41,578 bases of DNA, taken from NCBI GenBank assembly GCA_016935175.1, contig JAFGRK010000014.1, positions 1 through 41,578 on the forward strand, in the 5' to 3' direction. The notes below the pieces were generated by a model. That model searched no databases, was not told the DNA's origin, and saw only the letters and a program-made list of their open reading frames with translations. This DNA is from Candidatus Woesearchaeota archaeon (lineage in GTDB: Archaea > Nanobdellota > Nanobdellia > Woesearchaeales > SM23-78). The position numbers and the translations under genes were made by a program. Each line of letters starts with the position of its first letter. The first letter of the stretch is position 1. This document shows positions 21,449 through 41,578 of this stretch, one piece after another.

Positions 21449-21733
21449 CTTTGTTTACACAAAGCTAGCAAAAGAGCAAAGCTCTTTTGGAGCTCCAAAA
21501 ACATTTGGTTTTTGATAGCCTTTAGGGAAAGCAGGGGCATGCGCTCGCTTCGCTCACTTAGTCCCAATGTTAAAAAAGTCGCCACAGCAGCCTACGGCTA
21601 CGCCATGAACGAGAACAAAAGTTCTAGAGAATGGCGTCGGCTGTGGTGAAAAAAGGTACGCCTTTTGGCACTCAAAACTCGGGGTTTTGTTGAGCCCGGG
21701 GTCGCCCCACACGGGGTGACGAGGGCGACTTTT
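21449..21733 (+). repeat. Hairpin-mosaic element A
   Basis: Fills the gap between aIF5A and the lipase gene. First part: CAAAAGAGC-AAA-GCTCTTTTG (21469-21489), palindrome GGAGCTCC, CAAAAAC-N5-GTTTTTG (21496-21514). Second part: AAAAGTCGCC (21574-21583) pairs with GGCGACTTTT (21724-21733). Inside are CCACAGC/GCTGTGG (21582-21588, 21640-21646), ACGCCAT/ATGGCGT (21600-21606, 21631-21637), AGAAC-AAAA-GTTCT, AAAAGG-TACG-CCTTTT (21651-21666), module CTCAAAAC...GTTTTGTTG (21671-21692), and GTCGCCCC/GGGGTGAC (21701-21720). The pieces form a cloverleaf-like fold. Confidence 0.6.
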
Positions 21734-21746
21734 CAACCTTGCTGCC

Positions 21747-22760
21747 TTATTCAGAACTCTCTGGCTGTATAATCAGTATCTCCTTCTTGACTATATTATA
21801 TGCGTCCGGGCAGGTGTTAGGGTTGCTTATTGGGCCTTTGGGGTAGCTCTTCCTGAAGTCCAATAGCTCTGTGTGGCTGCACCCTTCTATCTGGTAGTAC
21901 TTGGCACCTGCCAGCTTGGTGGAGTCCAGCTTCACTATCACGTCTGAATTGCTGAAGAAGCTCTTCTCATAGTCTATGCCTTTTGGGTCAAGAATGGCAA
22001 GGCCGAAACTGACACTCTCATTAGCAAAATTATAAGTCCCTATGCTTACAATCCTATCCCTGTTGCTGGTGTCATCCTTGTCCAGCTGGTTGAGGAAATC
22101 GCTGCCAGGCCTCATCTGGTCTACTTCTTTCTCCCTGCCTGTGAACAGGCGTATTGCCATCAATATTATCTCCGTCCTGGTGAAGGAGTTAAACCCATAG
22201 TGGGGAGTTGCCAGAGTGATTAGCTTTTCAACGTGCTCATTTCCATAGTCAACCATGTATTTCCTTGACACCAACCCTCCCATGCTATGGCCTATCAATA
22301 TCACCTTGTCAGAGCCAGTGCAGTTCATCACCAGCCTCACTGCATGGTCTAGCTCCTTGGCATAATCCTCTATGCCTCGGTTTAAGTTGTCTGTGTAATA
22401 GTATTCTGAGCTCACGCTTATCCCTACAGGCCACTTCTCAGGGCATATTGCCTCGTTGCTGTAGCGGTCAATCAGTCCTCTAGCGATGGCCACTCCTTCG
22501 CGCTCCAGCTTTACCTCGTATTCAAGGTAATCAATGCTCTTGCCCATCCAACCGTGCACAAAGATTATGGGGTAAGGGGATGCTTCTGCTAAAGTTATGT
22601 TCTCATCTTCGTTCTCACCTGGCTTGATGACTTCAGAATCACTGCTTGGGTATTCATACGGGGGGCTTCTTACTTCCTTGAAGTAAAGGAAGGAGGTCCA
22701 GACAAGCAGCAGGACCAGCAGGAGCATCAGCATAATCACTTTCCTGATTGTTTTTCTCAT
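21747..22760 (-). CDS. Membrane-anchored lipase-like alpha/beta hydrolase
   Basis: Alpha/beta hydrolase of the lipase/PGAP1-like type, probably outside the cell on a membrane anchor (residues 8-26, VIMLMLLLVLLLVWTSFLY). The oxyanion region is PIIFVHGWMG (64-73), the nucleophile Ser159 is in LIGHSMGGLVSRKYM, followed by LATPHYGFNS. Likely acid is Asp273 (SDVIVKLDS) and base His296 (EGCSHTELL), so the triad is complete. At 337 residues it is a single domain. Start ATG 22760 has a minus-strand TATA-like GAATTTAAAATAG about 25 nt upstream. The substrate is unknown; ester or lipid hydrolysis is the best guess. Confidence 0.85.
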   Translation of the reverse strand: MRKTIRKVIMLMLLLVLLLVWTSFLYFKEVRSPPYEYPSSDSEVIKPGENEDENITLAEASPYPIIFVHGWMGKSIDYLEYEVKLEREGVAIARGLIDRYSNEAICPEKWPVGISVSSEYYYTDNLNRGIEDYAKELDHAVRLVMNCTGSDKVILIGHSMGGLVSRKYMVDYGNEHVEKLITLATPHYGFNSFTRTEIILMAIRLFTGREKEVDQMRPGSDFLNQLDKDDTSNRDRIVSIGTYNFANESVSFGLAILDPKGIDYEKSFFSNSDVIVKLDSTKLAGAKYYQIEGCSHTELLDFRKSYPKGPISNPNTCPDAYNIVKKEILIIQPESSE

Positions 22761-22849
22761 GCCAAGCAGGAAGTGGCTGCTATTTTAAATTCTTTTGGCA
22801 ATGGCAAGGATTATCAGGCAGGGCCCTGGTGATAGCCCTGGTTGCAATC

Positions 22850-22915
22850 AAAAAGTATTTATACCAGTTATCCCAAGATTAAGTGTTGCTTTATTAGGGT
22901 GGGTGGTTTTTTTTC
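22850..22915 (+). promoter_or_regulatory. TATA box followed by oligo-T, possible short RNA
   Basis: AAGTATTTATACC at 22851-22863 is a good TATA box. About 45 nt beyond it lies GGTTTTTTTTCG (22906-22917), an oligo-T stop. Any RNA made would be only about 30 nt, unless transcription reads on to the small membrane gene at 23004. Confidence 0.35.
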
Positions 22916-23003
22916 GCTTATAGGCGGCGCTGCCTTGAAAAGATGCTAATAAGGAAATTTTTTAAATATCTGCGGCTTTGGCGCCGCGGGGCTGAATGAA
23001 ACA

Positions 23004-23177
23004 TTGGTAAGGATTGATATCGCTTTGCCAGTAGCGACTTTTTTCGCCATCCTGGGAGGGGTGACCTTTATGGGCAATCATGAGTCCATAGGGATGCTCT
23101 TGCTAAGGGCAGGCATGTTTGCTGCTGGAGTAAATATCTTGGTGTCTCTCTTCTATGCTTTGCTAAGCTATGAGTAG
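23004..23177 (+). CDS. Tiny membrane protein with non-ATG start
   Basis: A 57-residue frame from TTG 23004 (61 residues if CTG 22992 is used) with LPVATFFAILGGVTFMG and MLLLRAGMFAAGVNILVSLFYALL as two clear membrane segments. A TATA-like TTTTTTAAATATC at 22958-22970 stands about 25 nt before 22992. No ATG lies at the start of the hydrophobic region; the first internal ATG would lose the first segment. The strongly patterned hydrophobicity and the promoter support a real gene. Family unknown. Confidence 0.45.
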   Translation: MVRIDIALPVATFFAILGGVTFMGNHESIGMLLLRAGMFAAGVNILVSLFYALLSYE

Positions 23178-23251
23178 GCACATCAATACTCATTAGGAAA
23201 AGGGAATAGGATTCTTGATTATGTTATTTACTAATCAGGCTAATGATAGAA

Positions 23252-23608
23252 TCAAGCAGATAGGACTGCAGTGATAAGCCAAACTGCAAAGAGGGCTATC
23301 AGCAACACCCCAAAAGCTTTCCTGAGTTTGTCACTCAACGACTTAACCACAAGCATGGTGAGGCCTTCTCCGAATGGTATGGCAAAGAAAAGCACCAATG
23401 ATGCCAATTCAGGAGCCTCCACTAGCTTCAATGGGAATGCATTGAAGATTACAAAGTTGATGAAGCTCATTCCTAAGAGCAGGTAGCCAAAGGTTTTCTT
23501 CATTTTATCATCAAGCCCCTTGAGCCTTAGCATGATTATCCCGATAATAAGATAGATGATGACTGAAGCAATCATTGCCAGCCCCATAATCAAGACATTA
23601 TCTACCAT
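23252..23608 (-). CDS. Four-helix small membrane protein
   Basis: A 118-residue protein that is nearly all membrane: segments about 5-28 (VLIMGLAMIASVIIYLIIGIIML), 39-58 (TFGYLLLGMSFINFVIFNAF), 68-88 (LASLVLFFAIPFGEGLTMLV) and 97-117 (AFGVLLIALFAVWLITAVLS), with short basic loops between. It converges on the tiny membrane gene at 23004. No signature of a transporter or enzyme is visible. Family unknown. Confidence 0.65.
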   Translation of the reverse strand: MVDNVLIMGLAMIASVIIYLIIGIIMLRLKGLDDKMKKTFGYLLLGMSFINFVIFNAFPLKLVEAPELASLVLFFAIPFGEGLTMLVVKSLSDKLRKAFGVLLIALFAVWLITAVLSA

Positions 23609-23728
23609 GCGAATGATAATGGCTGCTTGCTTATTTAAAGCTTGCCAAAACCAGGCGCTTTGCCAGCCTAAAACAGAAAAGCTTTAATAATGATGAGCTT
23701 ATGACAGGTGTAAGTGTGAGGTGCTATT

Positions 23729-23851
23729 ATGGATGAGGAGCCTGCAGAAGTGGCTGAAGAATACCAGTACGGCATTATTGAAGAGTTAAAGAGGATCAAT
23801 TCCACTCTTGAGAAGATTAGTGCTAATCTCGAGCTGATTGCCAAGAAGTAA
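23729..23851 (+). CDS. 40-residue acidic helical protein
   Basis: ATG 23729 follows GTGAGGTGCTATT, a good ribosome binding site, and opens a 40-codon ORF. The protein starts MDEEPAEVAEEYQ, then has heptad-like IIEELKRINSTLEKISANLELI, so it should form one amphipathic helix that oligomerises or binds a partner. It ends LIAKK. A TATA-like GCTTTAATAATG lies at about 23681-23692. It converges with the gene at 23883. Function unknown. Confidence 0.6.
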   Translation: MDEEPAEVAEEYQYGIIEELKRINSTLEKISANLELIAKK

Positions 23852-23882
23852 AGGGCTTTCAGAGCTAAAAACTTAGCCATAA

Positions 23883-24392
23883 TTAGTTGAATTTCCTCTT
23901 ATTAAGCTCTGCTTGCCTCTCAAATGCGCTGTAGAATAAGGTGAGGACTTTCACAGTGTTCTCTATGTTATCAGTCTCAAAAGAGAACTTCTCTATTAGG
24001 TTATATATGTGCGGGTTTGACTTCTTGACCATGCCATAACGCCTGAAGACGCACAAGTCATTGTTCATCCTGTATTCTCTATCAATATCCTTGATGGCTT
24101 TTCTTGTTACAATAGGCAGCGGGCCAGTGGACTTCATCATATGGTACACCAATGCTCCCATTAGTGTGACCCCGTCCTCTACCTTTGAGTTGGTAGTTAG
24201 GTAAAGAAGATAGCTTGCAGCCTCTGAGTTCTCATTTGCAAGGTTATTGGCAAGGATGCCTTGTGGCACTCGGTCAGAAAGCCTGTCAGCTAGCAAGCCC
24301 ATGGCTAATCCTTCACTCACAAAAGGCAGCTCTGTGATTAGGTCTGAGAGCTCTTCGCGATCCACCTCAAATGCATCTGAAGCTTCGTCCAT
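23883..24392 (-). CDS. Hypothetical helical protein
   Basis: A soluble, mostly helical protein of 169 residues beginning MDEASDAFEVDREELSDL. No membrane segment, signal or known motif is seen. A basic patch (VTRKAIKDIDREYRMNNDL) and an all-helical C-terminus could bind nucleic acid or protein. ATG 24392 lies about 28 nt from a TATA box with the CCGCAACC element, a leaderless start. The promoter is directly next to repeat element B. Family unknown. Confidence 0.65.
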   Translation of the reverse strand: MDEASDAFEVDREELSDLITELPFVSEGLAMGLLADRLSDRVPQGILANNLANENSEAASYLLYLTTNSKVEDGVTLMGALVYHMMKSTGPLPIVTRKAIKDIDREYRMNNDLCVFRRYGMVKKSNPHIYNLIEKFSFETDNIENTVKVLTLFYSAFERQAELNKRKFN

Positions 24393-24419
24393 GGCTAGCT
24401 TAAGGTGGATGTAGCAGCA

Positions 24420-24437
24420 TAAAAAGGTTGCGGAAAA
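24420..24437 (-). promoter_or_regulatory. Promoter with CCGCAACC element
   Basis: Minus strand TTTTCCGCAACCTTTTTA, about 28 nt upstream of ATG 24392. It shares its upstream element with the promoters at 21429 and 29071. Confidence 0.6.
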
Positions 24438-24450
24438 TAGGGGATTGCGT

Positions 24451-24602
24451 TTAAAAAGTGCTCGTCACCCGCCAGCGCCAACAAAATCTTTTAGGATTTT
24501 GAGCGGCGGTGGCGAGGCGGGGGTCGCCCCAGTCGGGGTGGTGCCGGAAACGCTGGCACCTCAAAAGCCTTAGCTTTTGTTGCCGAGTAGAGCACTTTTT
24601 AA
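24451..24602 (+). repeat. Hairpin-mosaic element B
   Basis: A perfect 13-bp terminal inverted repeat TTAAAAAGTGCTC/GAGCACTTTTTAA (24451-24463, 24590-24602) encloses: CACCCGCC pairing with GGCGGTG (one bulge); module CTCAAAA...TTTTGTTG in reverse orientation (24479-24503); the block GGGGTCGCCCC-AGTC-GGGGTG (24520-24540), differing from element A only in two loop bases; GGTGCC/GGCACC; and a forward module CTCAAAAGC-CTTA-GCTTTTGTTG (24560-24582). No ORF is present. Confidence 0.65.
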
Positions 24603-29630: not shown

Positions 29631-30020
29631 CTATTTAACAAACTCAACCCCTTCCATGCCCTTGAAGGCATTGTCTCCTGTCAGGAATTTGATTCCCCTG
29701 CTCCTGGCCATTACGTAGCCTATGCAGTCAATGTATGAGAACTTTTTCTTCCTATTGGAGTTCCTGAACAAACTGGCTTTTTTGATGGTGTCATCGCTTA
29801 TTTCAACTGCCATGCCCCTGAAGAATTCAAAATAAGCATCTGCTATCCTTTCTCCTTTTTCCTTTAGCGCCAGATAATGCAGCTCCAACAGATTCATCTT
29901 GGTAGTTATGGCATTAATGTTTTTTCCGTACTGTTCGTAGTTTTTATTTCCATTTAACACTTCTACAAAGGCGTATGTGTCAAAAAAATATGTTTCTGAA
30001 TTATTCTGATCTATTCCCAT
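29631..30020 (-). CDS. PIN-domain toxin (VapC-like)
   Basis: PIN-fold ribonuclease, the likely toxin of a toxin-antitoxin pair. Acidic residues fall in the usual positions: ETYFFDTYAFVEVL (Asp near residue 14), KMNLLELHYL (Glu), FSYIDCIGYVMAR (Asp) and KFLTGDNAFKG (Asp). At 129 residues it has the normal VapC size. It overlaps the AbrB-like gene by 10 nt, so toxin translation depends on the antitoxin. Targets in other archaea and bacteria are tRNA, rRNA or mRNA. Confidence 0.85.
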   Translation of the reverse strand: MGIDQNNSETYFFDTYAFVEVLNGNKNYEQYGKNINAITTKMNLLELHYLALKEKGERIADAYFEFFRGMAVEISDDTIKKASLFRNSNRKKKFSYIDCIGYVMARSRGIKFLTGDNAFKGMEGVEFVK

Positions 30021-30220
30021 CCTTTCCTTTCCTCATCTTTCATTTGCTGGGCGCTTTTCTTGAATTTGAGGCTGCCAAATATTGCGCTCAGGTCTGTTTT
30101 CTTCACCACGTCCACTAATATGGTGTCTTCTGGCTTCAACTTGTGCTCCTCCACAAAGCTTTTCGGGAACACTCCACCTAATGAGTTGCCCCATTTCCTT
30201 AGCGTTACTTCGACTGCCAT
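30011..30220 (-). CDS. AbrB/MazE-type antitoxin
   Basis: A 69-residue protein with a swapped-hairpin AbrB domain: VEVTLRKWGNSLGGVFPKSFVEEHKLKPEDTI is a textbook match (split here for its parts: RKWGNSLG, PKSFVEEHKL). The C-terminal 20 residues, LKFKKSAQQMKDEERKGW, would cover the toxin. The start is ATG 30220, because AGGTGATTAAC before it is the ribosome binding site; the GTG at 30229 is part of that site. It should neutralise the overlapping PIN toxin and repress their common promoter, where a matching operator is seen at 30360-30392. Confidence 0.85.
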   Translation of the reverse strand: MAVEVTLRKWGNSLGGVFPKSFVEEHKLKPEDTILVDVVKKTDLSAIFGSLKFKKSAQQMKDEERKGWE

Positions 30221-30240
30221 GTTAATCACCTTTGCTTTAG

Positions 30241-30353
30241 GGAAATTGCCTCAGCCGTCTGCTTCACCATGAGTGAAAACTTTTCCATCTGAGCGAATGG
30301 TGATGGCTGACTCGGCGGGGGACGGCCCCTCGGGGTGCCGAGGGCAATTTTCC
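30241..30353 (-). repeat. Hairpin-mosaic element C in the toxin-antitoxin leader
   Basis: GGAAATTGCC/GGCAATTTTCC (30241-30250, 30343-30353; one bulge) closes two arms: TCAGCC/GGCTGA (30251-30256, 30305-30310) with TCACCAT/ATGGTGA (30264-30270, 30297-30303), and CTCGGC/GCCGAG (30311-30316, 30337-30342) with CCCC/GGGG inside. The arrangement matches element A (ACGCCAT/ATGGCGT, CCACAGC/GCTGTGG) with different bases in the pairs. It lies between the operator and the antitoxin ribosome binding site, so it is probably transcribed as the mRNA leader. Confidence 0.6.
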
Positions 30354-30459: not shown

Positions 30460-30680
30460 GTGAAATTCCGTGATGTTTCCGGCAGGAAGCGGAGTTTATG
30501 CAAGCTTATGCTTTTTAACTTTTCAGCCAGTCCCTGACAGCTTTGCTGTCACAGCAAAAACGCAGTTTTTGCATGCCAAGAGCAAAGCTCTTGTCAGCTC
30601 AAAAATGCTAGCATTTTTGTTGGGCGCTTGAGGACCACAAGAAGAAAACGTGCTTTATTATTTGCGCCTGCGGCGGGCCT
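30460..30680 (+). repeat. Hairpin-mosaic region E
   Basis: A chain of hairpins: AAATTCCG...CGGAGTTT around TTTCC-GGCA-GGAAG (about 30465-30497), TGACAGC-TTT-GCTGTCA (30535-30551), GCAAAAAC-GCA-GTTTTTGC (30554-30572), CAAGAGC-AAA-GCTCTTG (30577-30593) and module CTCAAAAATG-CTAG-CATTTTTGTTG (30598-30622). It ends with the compact motif AGGCCCGCCGCAGGCGCAAA on the minus strand (30661-30680). No ORF is supported in this gap. Confidence 0.55.
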
Positions 30681-33652: not shown

Positions 33653-33656
33653 ATTA

Positions 33657-33712
33657 TTGAATAATATTCAATTATTTATATATTTTACGCTAATTATTTG
33701 AATTTTATTCAA
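33657..33712. promoter_or_regulatory. Twin Lrp operators between divergent genes
   Basis: TTGAATAATATTCAA (33657-33671) and TTGAATTTTATTCAA (33698-33712) are both TTGAAT-N3-ATTCAA palindromes. Their centres are 41 bp apart, close to four helical turns, so both face the same side of the DNA, as Lrp octamers prefer. AT-rich TATA-like sequences lie between them. Confidence 0.75.
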
Positions 33713-33771
33713 TAAGATATATAAGGTTAAGACGACACACTACTACCTAGTAAAAAAAAGGAGGTGCAAAG

Positions 33772-39147: not shown

Positions 39148-39200
39148 ATTCACTCAACACAAGCCTTTACCAAGCCATAGAATAGCGGGCATGGCTTTTC
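39148..39200 (-). pseudogene. Relic of the pyrG 3' end (left repeat)
   Basis: 53 bp matching the 3' end of pyrG at 39807-39859 with two mismatches. On the minus strand it still reads EKPCPLFYGLVKACVE plus stop in frame, where pyrG has EKPGPLFYGLVKACVE. It lies just beyond the end of the acetyltransferase gene. It looks like one of a pair of repeats left by an insertion. Confidence 0.75.
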
Positions 39201-39213
39201 TAGAATCTTCAAG

Positions 39214-39759
39214 CTAATATTTTAATCGTAATTCCCAAGAAGTAGAGTTATTGCTCTTGTACTTTTCATTAGGTACCTGCATAAATCCAAGCCTCTGATA
39301 AAGCTGAGTTGCTGCTTTGAATTCTTTCCTGGTTGTCAAGAATAATTTTTCAAAGCCTAATACGCCTGCTTTTTGTATTAGGTCACTCACTAAAGCCTTG
39401 CCCAGCCCTTTTCCCCTTAGTTCAGGAATAAGGTATATGTCAGTAATCTCTCCAGTCATAGGCTCTTTTTTCGGATTCTTCTGTATAAGCCCTCCGCAAC
39501 CAACAACTTCTTCAGAGCGCTTTACAGTATAAAACACTCTTTTCTCAAGGTCTTGACCATTTGGGCCTCTAAATTCAGATTCAAAAACTTCAGGATGCCG
39601 ATTATACCAAGCAGATAATCTTGGGCACAGCTCATTGAAGATGGCGTATTTTAATTTTACTATTCCTTCTAAATCACCATTGCCTGAAGGCATAATAAAA
39701 AGCCCATTACTATCAAATGCCTTTTTTGTCTTTGCATAGGGCTCATAAAATTTATTCAT
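39214..39759 (-). CDS. GNAT-family N-acetyltransferase
   Basis: A 181-residue GNAT. The acetyl-CoA loop is EITDIYLIPELRGKGLGKALVSDLIQKA (motif R/K-G-x-G-x-G/A as RGKGLG) and the C-terminal strand-helix GFEKLFLTTRKEFKAATQLYQRLGFMQV is typical. The long N-terminal 70 residues fit small-molecule or protein acetylases. Start ATG 39759 (MNKFYEPYAK) has a TATA-like ATTTAAAAATAG about 25 nt upstream on the minus strand. The gene is more AT-rich than its neighbours and sits between the two copies of the pyrG 3' end, so it was probably inserted here. Confidence 0.85.
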   Translation of the reverse strand: MNKFYEPYAKTKKAFDSNGLFIMPSGNGDLEGIVKLKYAIFNELCPRLSAWYNRHPEVFESEFRGPNGQDLEKRVFYTVKRSEEVVGCGGLIQKNPKKEPMTGEITDIYLIPELRGKGLGKALVSDLIQKAGVLGFEKLFLTTRKEFKAATQLYQRLGFMQVPNEKYKSNNSTSWELRLKY

Positions 39760-39806: not shown

Positions 39807-39859
39807 ATTCACTCAACACAAGCTTTTACCAAGCCATAGAATAGCGGGCCTGGCTTTTC
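39807..39859 (-). repeat. pyrG 3' end, right repeat copy
   Basis: The functional copy: last codons and stop of pyrG. It is a direct repeat of 39148-39200, 659 bp away, with the acetyltransferase gene between them. Confidence 0.75.
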
Positions 39860-41431
39860 AAGCTTGCTTTTTAGCTCTGGATGGGCTTGGGTTCCTACAA
39901 AGTACTTGTGCTTTTCCTTTGGCAGCTCTATGAACTCAACTAGCTTGCCATCTGGGCTCATGCCTGAGAACACTAATCCATGCTTTTGAAGCACTTCATG
40001 ATATTCAGGGTTGACCTCATACCTGTGCCTGTGCCTCTCGCTAACTTCTTTTTGTTTGCTGTACAGGGCCCATATTATTGTGCCTGGCTTCATAATAGCA
40101 GGATAAGCTCCCAGCCTCATGGTTGCTCCCTTGTCCTTGACTTCTTTTTGTTCAGGCATGATATCTATGACTGGGTTCTTGGTCTTCTCATCGACTTCTG
40201 TGGTGTTGGCATCTTTCAAGCCGCAAACATTCCTTGCAAACTCAACAGTTGCTAATTGCAATCCAAGGCATATGCCTAGGAAGGGTATGTTTTTTTCGCG
40301 GCAATACTGCACTATTTGTATCTTGCCTTCTATTCCCCTGCTGCCAAACCCTCCAGGAACAATCACTCCATCTATTCCTTCAAGCAATTTTTTTGCATCT
40401 GCCTGGCTGCCCACCTTTTCAGTGTCTATCATTTTAACGCAAATCTTGGTTTTGAGATTGGCGCTGCAATGCTTCAATGCTTCCAATATGCTTGCATATG
40501 AGTCTTCTAGCTTAGTATATTTGCCACAGATAGCAATATTCACTGTCTTTTCTAGCTTGTCAAGGTTATCAACCAGCTTTTTCCACTCAGGGCTTACACC
40601 TGAGTCAATGCAAAGCTTTTCCTTGATTATGCTGTTAATGCCTTCATCTGAGAATATCACAGGCATTTTGTAGACGCAGTCAACATCAATGCCAGATATC
40701 ACTCCATTTTCTTCTACATCGCAGAAAGTGCTAATCTTCTTTTTTATGTGAGCATCTAGGTATTCAGAGCACCTGCCGATGATGATGTCAGGGTCAATGC
40801 CTCTTTCCCTTAATAATGCTACTGACTGCTGGGTTGGCTTGCTCTTCTGCTCATGCACATTAGTAGGTATGGGAATGTAAGTCAGGTGAACATACAAGAT
40901 GTTGCATTCTCCTACTTCTCTCTTGAGCTGGCGGCAAGCCTCAATGTAAAGCTCGTTCTCAATGTCGCCAACAGTGCCTCCTACTTCTATGAGCACTACA
41001 TCTGCTTTTTCATCATCAGCCACCTTGTAGAACCATTCCTTGATATGGTCAGTTACATGAGGGATTAGCTGGACTGTCTTGCCAAGATAATCCCCTCTTC
41101 TTTCCTTGACTCTCAAGGCTTCGTACACCTTGCCCATAGTAAGGTTCCAGTTGAACTTGCAATTAATGCCAAGAAACCTTTCATAATGGCCAAAGTCCAT
41201 GTCAACCTCTCCTCCGTCATCAAGAACAAACACTTCGCCATGCTCAACAGGGTTCATGGTTCCAGGGTCAACATTAAGGTAGCCGTCGCACTTGATAGGA
41301 ATAACCCTCAAGCCAGCTTTTGTTATCAAGTTGCCAATAGTAGCAGCAGCAACGCCTTTTCCCAAGCCAGAGAGAACACCGCCTGTAACGACAATGAATT
41401 TCTTGTTGTCATTCCTCTTTTTACGCGGCAT
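39809..41431 (-). CDS. pyrG: CTP synthase
   Basis: Glutamine-dependent CTP synthase, converting UTP to CTP. The synthase domain (about 1-275) opens KKFIVVTGGVLSGLGKGVAAATIGNL with the P-loop SGLGKG, and contains ALRVKERRGDYLGKTVQLIPHVT. The class-I glutaminase domain (about 295-540) has PGGFGSRGIEGK, the nucleophile Cys in FLGICLGLQLA and the His/Glu pair in GTQAHPELKSK. The length of 540 residues is standard. ATG 41431 follows a minus-strand TATA-like CTTTAAATATAA. Its 3' end is duplicated at 39148-39200. Confidence 0.97.
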   Translation of the reverse strand: MPRKKRNDNKKFIVVTGGVLSGLGKGVAAATIGNLITKAGLRVIPIKCDGYLNVDPGTMNPVEHGEVFVLDDGGEVDMDFGHYERFLGINCKFNWNLTMGKVYEALRVKERRGDYLGKTVQLIPHVTDHIKEWFYKVADDEKADVVLIEVGGTVGDIENELYIEACRQLKREVGECNILYVHLTYIPIPTNVHEQKSKPTQQSVALLRERGIDPDIIIGRCSEYLDAHIKKKISTFCDVEENGVISGIDVDCVYKMPVIFSDEGINSIIKEKLCIDSGVSPEWKKLVDNLDKLEKTVNIAICGKYTKLEDSYASILEALKHCSANLKTKICVKMIDTEKVGSQADAKKLLEGIDGVIVPGGFGSRGIEGKIQIVQYCREKNIPFLGICLGLQLATVEFARNVCGLKDANTTEVDEKTKNPVIDIMPEQKEVKDKGATMRLGAYPAIMKPGTIIWALYSKQKEVSERHRHRYEVNPEYHEVLQKHGLVFSGMSPDGKLVEFIELPKEKHKYFVGTQAHPELKSKLEKPGPLFYGLVKACVE

Positions 41432-41479
41432 TATTAGATGAAGTTAGAAGTTATATTTAAAGATTATTGAAAAGTTGGC

Positions 41480-41578
41480 AAGGCCTACGGCAAGTGCAAT
41501 GTCTTTTACGTTAGGAAAAGACTTGCACTGCGGCCTTTTGGGCGGGGTCGCCCAAGCAAAAGCGAAGCTTTTGATGTG
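41480..41578 (+). repeat. Hairpin-mosaic element D, cut by the window end
   Basis: AAGGCC/GGCCTT (41480-41485, 41532-41537) encloses AGTGCAA-GTCTTTT paired with AAAAGAC-TTGCACT (41493-41507, 41516-41529; one bulge). GGGC-GGGGTC-GCCC (41540-41553) carries the start of the GGGGTCGCCC block seen in elements A and B, and CAAAAGC-GAA-GCTTTTG (41557-41573) follows. The rest lies outside the window. Confidence 0.5.

Follow-up and report, generated by a model that had tools for sequence, protein, structure and literature searches.

A family of MITE-like palindromic elements with a predicted three-way junction in a woesearchaeal (DPANN) genome

Repeated elements in the window and in the genome

The window analysed in this work is the whole stretch of 41,578 nucleotides of contig JAFGRK010000014.1 (assembly GCA_016935175.1, Candidatus Woesearchaeota archaeon, order Woesearchaeales). 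It contains four members of a repeat family, referred to as elements A to D, whose features are the following:

21573-21734 (+), element A, an enlarged copy of 162 nt (covariance model R1, E=1.3e-7 in its own genome)
21574-21583 (+), A, left arm of the closing stem P1 (AAAAGTCGCC)
21698-21718 (+), A, conserved tip of hairpin P3, GGGGTCGCCCC-ACAC-GGGGTG
21724-21733 (+), A, right arm of P1 (GGCGACTTTT)
24451-24602 (+), element B, an enlarged copy with two extra hairpins, between two divergent genes (R1 match 24457-24554, E=0.0024)
24451-24463 (+), B, left arm of P1 (TTAAAAAGTGCTC)
24520-24540 (+), B, conserved P3 tip, GGGGTCGCCCC-AGTC-GGGGTG
24590-24602 (+), B, right arm of P1 (GAGCACTTTTTAA)
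30240-30353 (+), element C, a canonical 114-nt copy with the diverged tip GGGGACGGCCCC-TC-GGGGTG, 19 bp upstream of an AbrB-like/PIN gene pair (30011-30220 and 29631-30020) on the other strand (R1, E=1.3e-16); the AbrB-like protein was recognised by eye
41470-41572 (+), element D, a copy near the contig end whose match lacks the usual 3' arm, 38 bp upstream of the CTP synthase gene on the other strand (R1, E=7.1e-9)

The initial annotation had described A and B as two intergenic elements with terminal inverted repeats sharing the core GGGGTCGCCCC-N4-GGGGTG, had reported diverged or partial versions in C and D, and had proposed a repeat family of small non-coding elements, MITE-like or a structured RNA. 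Both elements, their inverted repeats and the core were confirmed, the two cores differing only at two loop bases, and C and D turned out to be true members of the family; the proposed interpretation is supported by the data presented below. The core is not expected by chance, since 0.02 occurrences with up to three mismatches are expected in the window and two were found. In the whole genome (hereinafter G000; 1,223,909 bases in 35 contigs, 93.6% complete) there are nine exact copies and none of the reversed pattern used as a control.

A covariance model (R1) was then built from seven canonical copies. It retrieved 55 matches at E up to 1 from G000, about 50 of which are convincing, 58 from the sister species G006, four from G005, three from G002, and none from G001 or G004 (G001-G005 being congeners). 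The boundaries of the element are sharp (AAAAAGTCGCC ... GGCGACTTTTT) and its canonical length is 101-114 nt; A and B are atypical copies enlarged by extra hairpins, and the copies overall range from 101 to 214 nt. Small A/T-rich hairpins (such as AAAAGCNTNAGCTTTT or AGAGCAAAGCTCT) recur in intergenic DNA of the window (21464-21500, 30540-30630, 41555-41575) and also as insertions inside element B and the copy L025, and probably represent a second, shorter repeat family. The window also harbors a 25-bp near-perfect A/T palindrome with a 12-base loop in an intergenic gap (33654-33715) and a 56-bp direct repeat, 95% identical, whose two copies (39148-39203 and 39807-39862) are 659 bp apart and flank the gene at 39214-39759.

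Structure and phylogenetic distribution

The copies fold as a three-way junction, in which the stem P1 closes the ends, P2 is a long hairpin with the base CAGCC/GGCTG, and P3 consists of a 6-bp stem, an asymmetric loop GGGGGNYG, a CCCC-NNNC-GGGG hairpin and a T; the tip of P3 is almost invariant (bulged GGGG-NYG, then CCCC-NNNC-GGGG, then TG). To check this structure, 44 copies from two species were aligned: 88.8% of the pair cells (96.5% in the P1 arms) are paired against 76.3% after shuffling, 208 cells are double-changed against 64 in the shuffles, and 28 of 38 pairs show a change on both sides, all three arms showing heavy compensatory change. Sliding the partner columns by one to three positions collapses every measure (at most 54 double changes), and RNAalifold, given no structure, returned the same junction. 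Non-standard cells are few, with G-T and A-C occurring 34 and 19 times, respectively, among 1646; thus, the data do not clearly indicate which strand, or whether RNA or DNA, is under selection.

Moreover, P2 carries a 5-base unit twice in tandem (for example GCAAC-CA-GCAAC), and the second unit tracks the first across the elements (4.23 of 5 bases identical against 3.20 when shuffled, z 8.6), so that the GGCTG strand can pair with either of them. An alternative pairing is therefore conserved. No Rfam 15 family matched the element at the gathering score, nor was any credible match found at E up to 5.

The core pattern was found in 19 of 288 sampled genomes of the order, belonging to 15 of 193 genera, with no match of the reversed control in any of them; the distribution is patchy, and the tip is multi-copy where present. 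A general scan of genome contigs retrieved many Woesearchaeota and Nanoarchaeota records, together with a GC-rich bacterial background expected by chance, and in these archaea the tip sits in other multi-armed palindromes. A second covariance model (R2) retrieved 3-28 matches from each core-bearing genome tested and none from seven good genomes lacking the core. In G201, a genome from another family, nearly every copy has different P1 arms that are still complementary.

Mobility, in-frame insertions and genomic setting

In the congener G003, ten contig ends terminate in one identical 142-bp unit; pairing of their flanks gives five copies, with outer ends GACATTGTC/GGTATTGTC, each bordered by a perfect 9-bp direct repeat of the target (ATTTATTAG, TGTTATAAC, TATAATCAG, CTTTTCCCA, and CTTATTTCT). 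The G003 unit has a diverged tip and matches R2 only at E=4e-5; its link to the core-bearing family is represented by the G201 copy L315, which is also 142 bp long, has the exact core, shares the termini (GACATTGT...), aligns along the whole length, and carries the 9-bp duplication CTTTTTCGC. A first test for target duplications with the boundaries placed at the A-run gave only a weak signal. In G000 and G006, when the ends were allowed up to 18 nt outside P1, 17 of 89 copies had flanking 9-mers matching at eight or more positions, against 5.2 expected and a maximum of 11 in 200 shuffles, and one copy (L016) has a perfect TTGCCTTTA on both sides, although most copies in these two genomes have no recognisable duplication. 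The orthologous sites of L189, L180 and L022 are empty in G006. A few sites are shared between the two species; in some of them (L186 and L220; L194 and L219) the same intergenic gap carries a copy in opposite orientation, which suggests either an independent insertion or an inversion. In other cases (L014, G000 contig C1, 280-1613; L233, G006 contig C26, 1557-1778; L231, G006 contig C15, 18303-18578), copies adjoin each other in opposite orientation, sometimes with no gap, as if the ends of old copies were preferred targets.

In two cases the element has landed inside an essential-type gene without breaking it. In G000, a copy lies inside the Bud32 kinase gene, between NMIL and FIDFGL, and the frame stays open; G006 has a longer copy at the same place, also in frame, while the five congeners G001-G005 have an uninterrupted Bud32. 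In G006, another copy lies inside HypF, and the alignment with the solved HypF structure (PDB 4g9i) jumps from query residue 407 to 457 while the template moves from 396 to 401. The elements have few stop codons in any frame, which makes such insertions possible, and two different insert lengths with open frames (37 and about 55 codons) speak for translation through the element, mRNA splicing being unlikely.

Concerning the gene context, 64 copies lie between tandem genes, 19 between divergent genes and four between convergent genes, whereas six were called inside genes, of which two are true in-gene insertions and the others overlap predicted gene starts. These proportions roughly follow the available intergenic space, and the orientation relative to tandem genes is random (28 of 64). 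Within tandem gaps, copies lean towards the upstream stop codon, with 30 of 56 lying within 20 bp of it against 16 expected.

The search for a mobilising enzyme in G000, which is only 93.6% complete, retrieved no match to Y1, reverse transcriptase, DDE_Tnp_1 or the transposase peptide described below, nor to TnpB above the cut-off. In G003, at least four contig ends share 24 of 26 terminal bases with the 142-bp element and then lead into the C-terminus of a transposase-like ORF (VNPHMQLKGATPAEKAGL...). Pfam and NCBIfam did not recognise this 43-aa tail, but its best full-length hit, 39% identical over the short peptide, is a DDE_Tnp_IS240 protein, its weak relative in the genome G084. This is the best lead for the enzyme, whose role is inferred; the full parental insertion sequence was not recovered. 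The G003 DDE_Tnp_1 element has different ends (GGAACCGTCC) and is not the parent; a complete DDE_Tnp_1 insertion sequence at the start of contig C50 of G003 (L280) has ends GGAACCGTCCAGAATCT and is unrelated to the palindromes.

Possible origin and meaning of the elements

Taken together, these data make it most likely that the elements are non-autonomous, MITE-like palindromic transposable elements of Woesearchaeales, which move by a transposition making 9-bp target duplications, most likely in trans by a DDE insertion-sequence transposase recognising terminal sequences outside P1. They settle mainly in intergenic DNA in either orientation, often just behind stop codons. Both the DDE transposase and a requirement of P1-P3 for mobility are inferences. 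The outer termini differ between genomes (GRYATTGTC in G003/G201 and GGRTGYGTT-like in G000/G006), so that a different but analogous insertion sequence must be assumed in the latter, and many G201 copies show only P1, with copy-specific arms and no evident duplication; this suggests that the structured module may ride on different transposons or be kept for another reason.

In principle, the module might instead be a functional RNA (cis-regulatory or a small protein-binding RNA) kept by selection on the host and spread by transposition, in which case mobility would explain where it is and RNA function why the three arms and the tip stay intact. This would agree with the compensatory changes, also seen at one orthologous site with the same orientation (L031/L227), where the two species differ by several compensated pairs in P1, P2 and P3, with the complementary but variable P1 arms of G201, with the near invariance of the bulge GGGG and of the tip across families, and with the conserved alternative pairing of P2. 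However, the orientation relative to genes is random, gene contexts roughly follow the available intergenic DNA, the neighbours are unrelated genes, presence is patchy within one genus, and the rare G-U pairs do not single out the RNA strand; structural selection on transposition itself, or gene conversion, would give the same covariation. We regard this explanation as possible but unlikely. Equally tentative is the bolder idea of a transposable structured RNA family rather than mere insertion-sequence debris, in which a module with one near-invariant, protein-binding-like tip and a conserved alternative pairing rides on several unrelated transposon ends across Woesearchaeales and, after landing, is kept as a host-used RNA or DNA switch.

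Two other explanations appear very unlikely. REP-type palindromes mobilised by a Y1 (RAYT/IS200-605) transposase (GTAG/CGTC families, PMC3733652) share with these elements the hairpin with a conserved tip, the high copy number and the intergenic location; nevertheless, no PF01797 match was found in the two copy-rich genomes G000 and G006, the GTAG/CGTC tag is absent, the tip is different, the length is 110-160 nt rather than 20-40, and the 9-bp duplications, which Y1 enzymes are not expected to make, largely refute this reading. A role as bidirectional intrinsic terminators or operon punctuation would fit the AAAAA...TTTTT ends on both strands and the closeness to upstream stop codons, but copies sit between rpoB and rpoA1 (G006), in the Spt5-L11 region (G000), between divergent genes and inside open reading frames, and only four lie between convergent genes; these locations and the random orientation make strong terminators unlikely. 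A TnpB/IscB-associated RNA (HEARO/omega RNA) is not supported either, since no PF07282 match above the cut-off was found in G000, in a search that included neither G006 nor IscB.

As in Sulfolobus SM1-SM4, ERIC and Correia (PMC10969869), the elements fall within 50-500 bp, have no ORF of their own, inverted ends, tens of mostly intergenic copies and a target duplication; in one genome they may also share their ends with a longer insertion sequence, of which only a partial end was found. They differ in that the interior is a conserved, covarying three-way junction with a near-invariant tip shared across many families while the ends change, and in the DPANN host group. In their behaviour they also resemble the Rickettsia palindromic elements (described in PMC10969869), palindromes of about 100-160 bp that insert in frame in unrelated genes with an open frame through them; here the hosts are archaeal, most copies are intergenic and only two in-gene sites were found.

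DPANN archaea have tiny genomes and, in a literature search that was not exhaustive, we found no described family of this sort, so that the present one is apparently the first such family in these organisms. About 50 copies of a structured mobile element occupy a 1.2 Mb genome, and in this genome and its sister species copies sit inside ribosomal-protein and RNA polymerase gene clusters and inside the kinase Bud32 and the maturase HypF. This gives an archaeal parallel to Rickettsia palindromic elements as a source of new protein segments, and a concrete, testable case for asking whether a transposon can spread a selected RNA structure.
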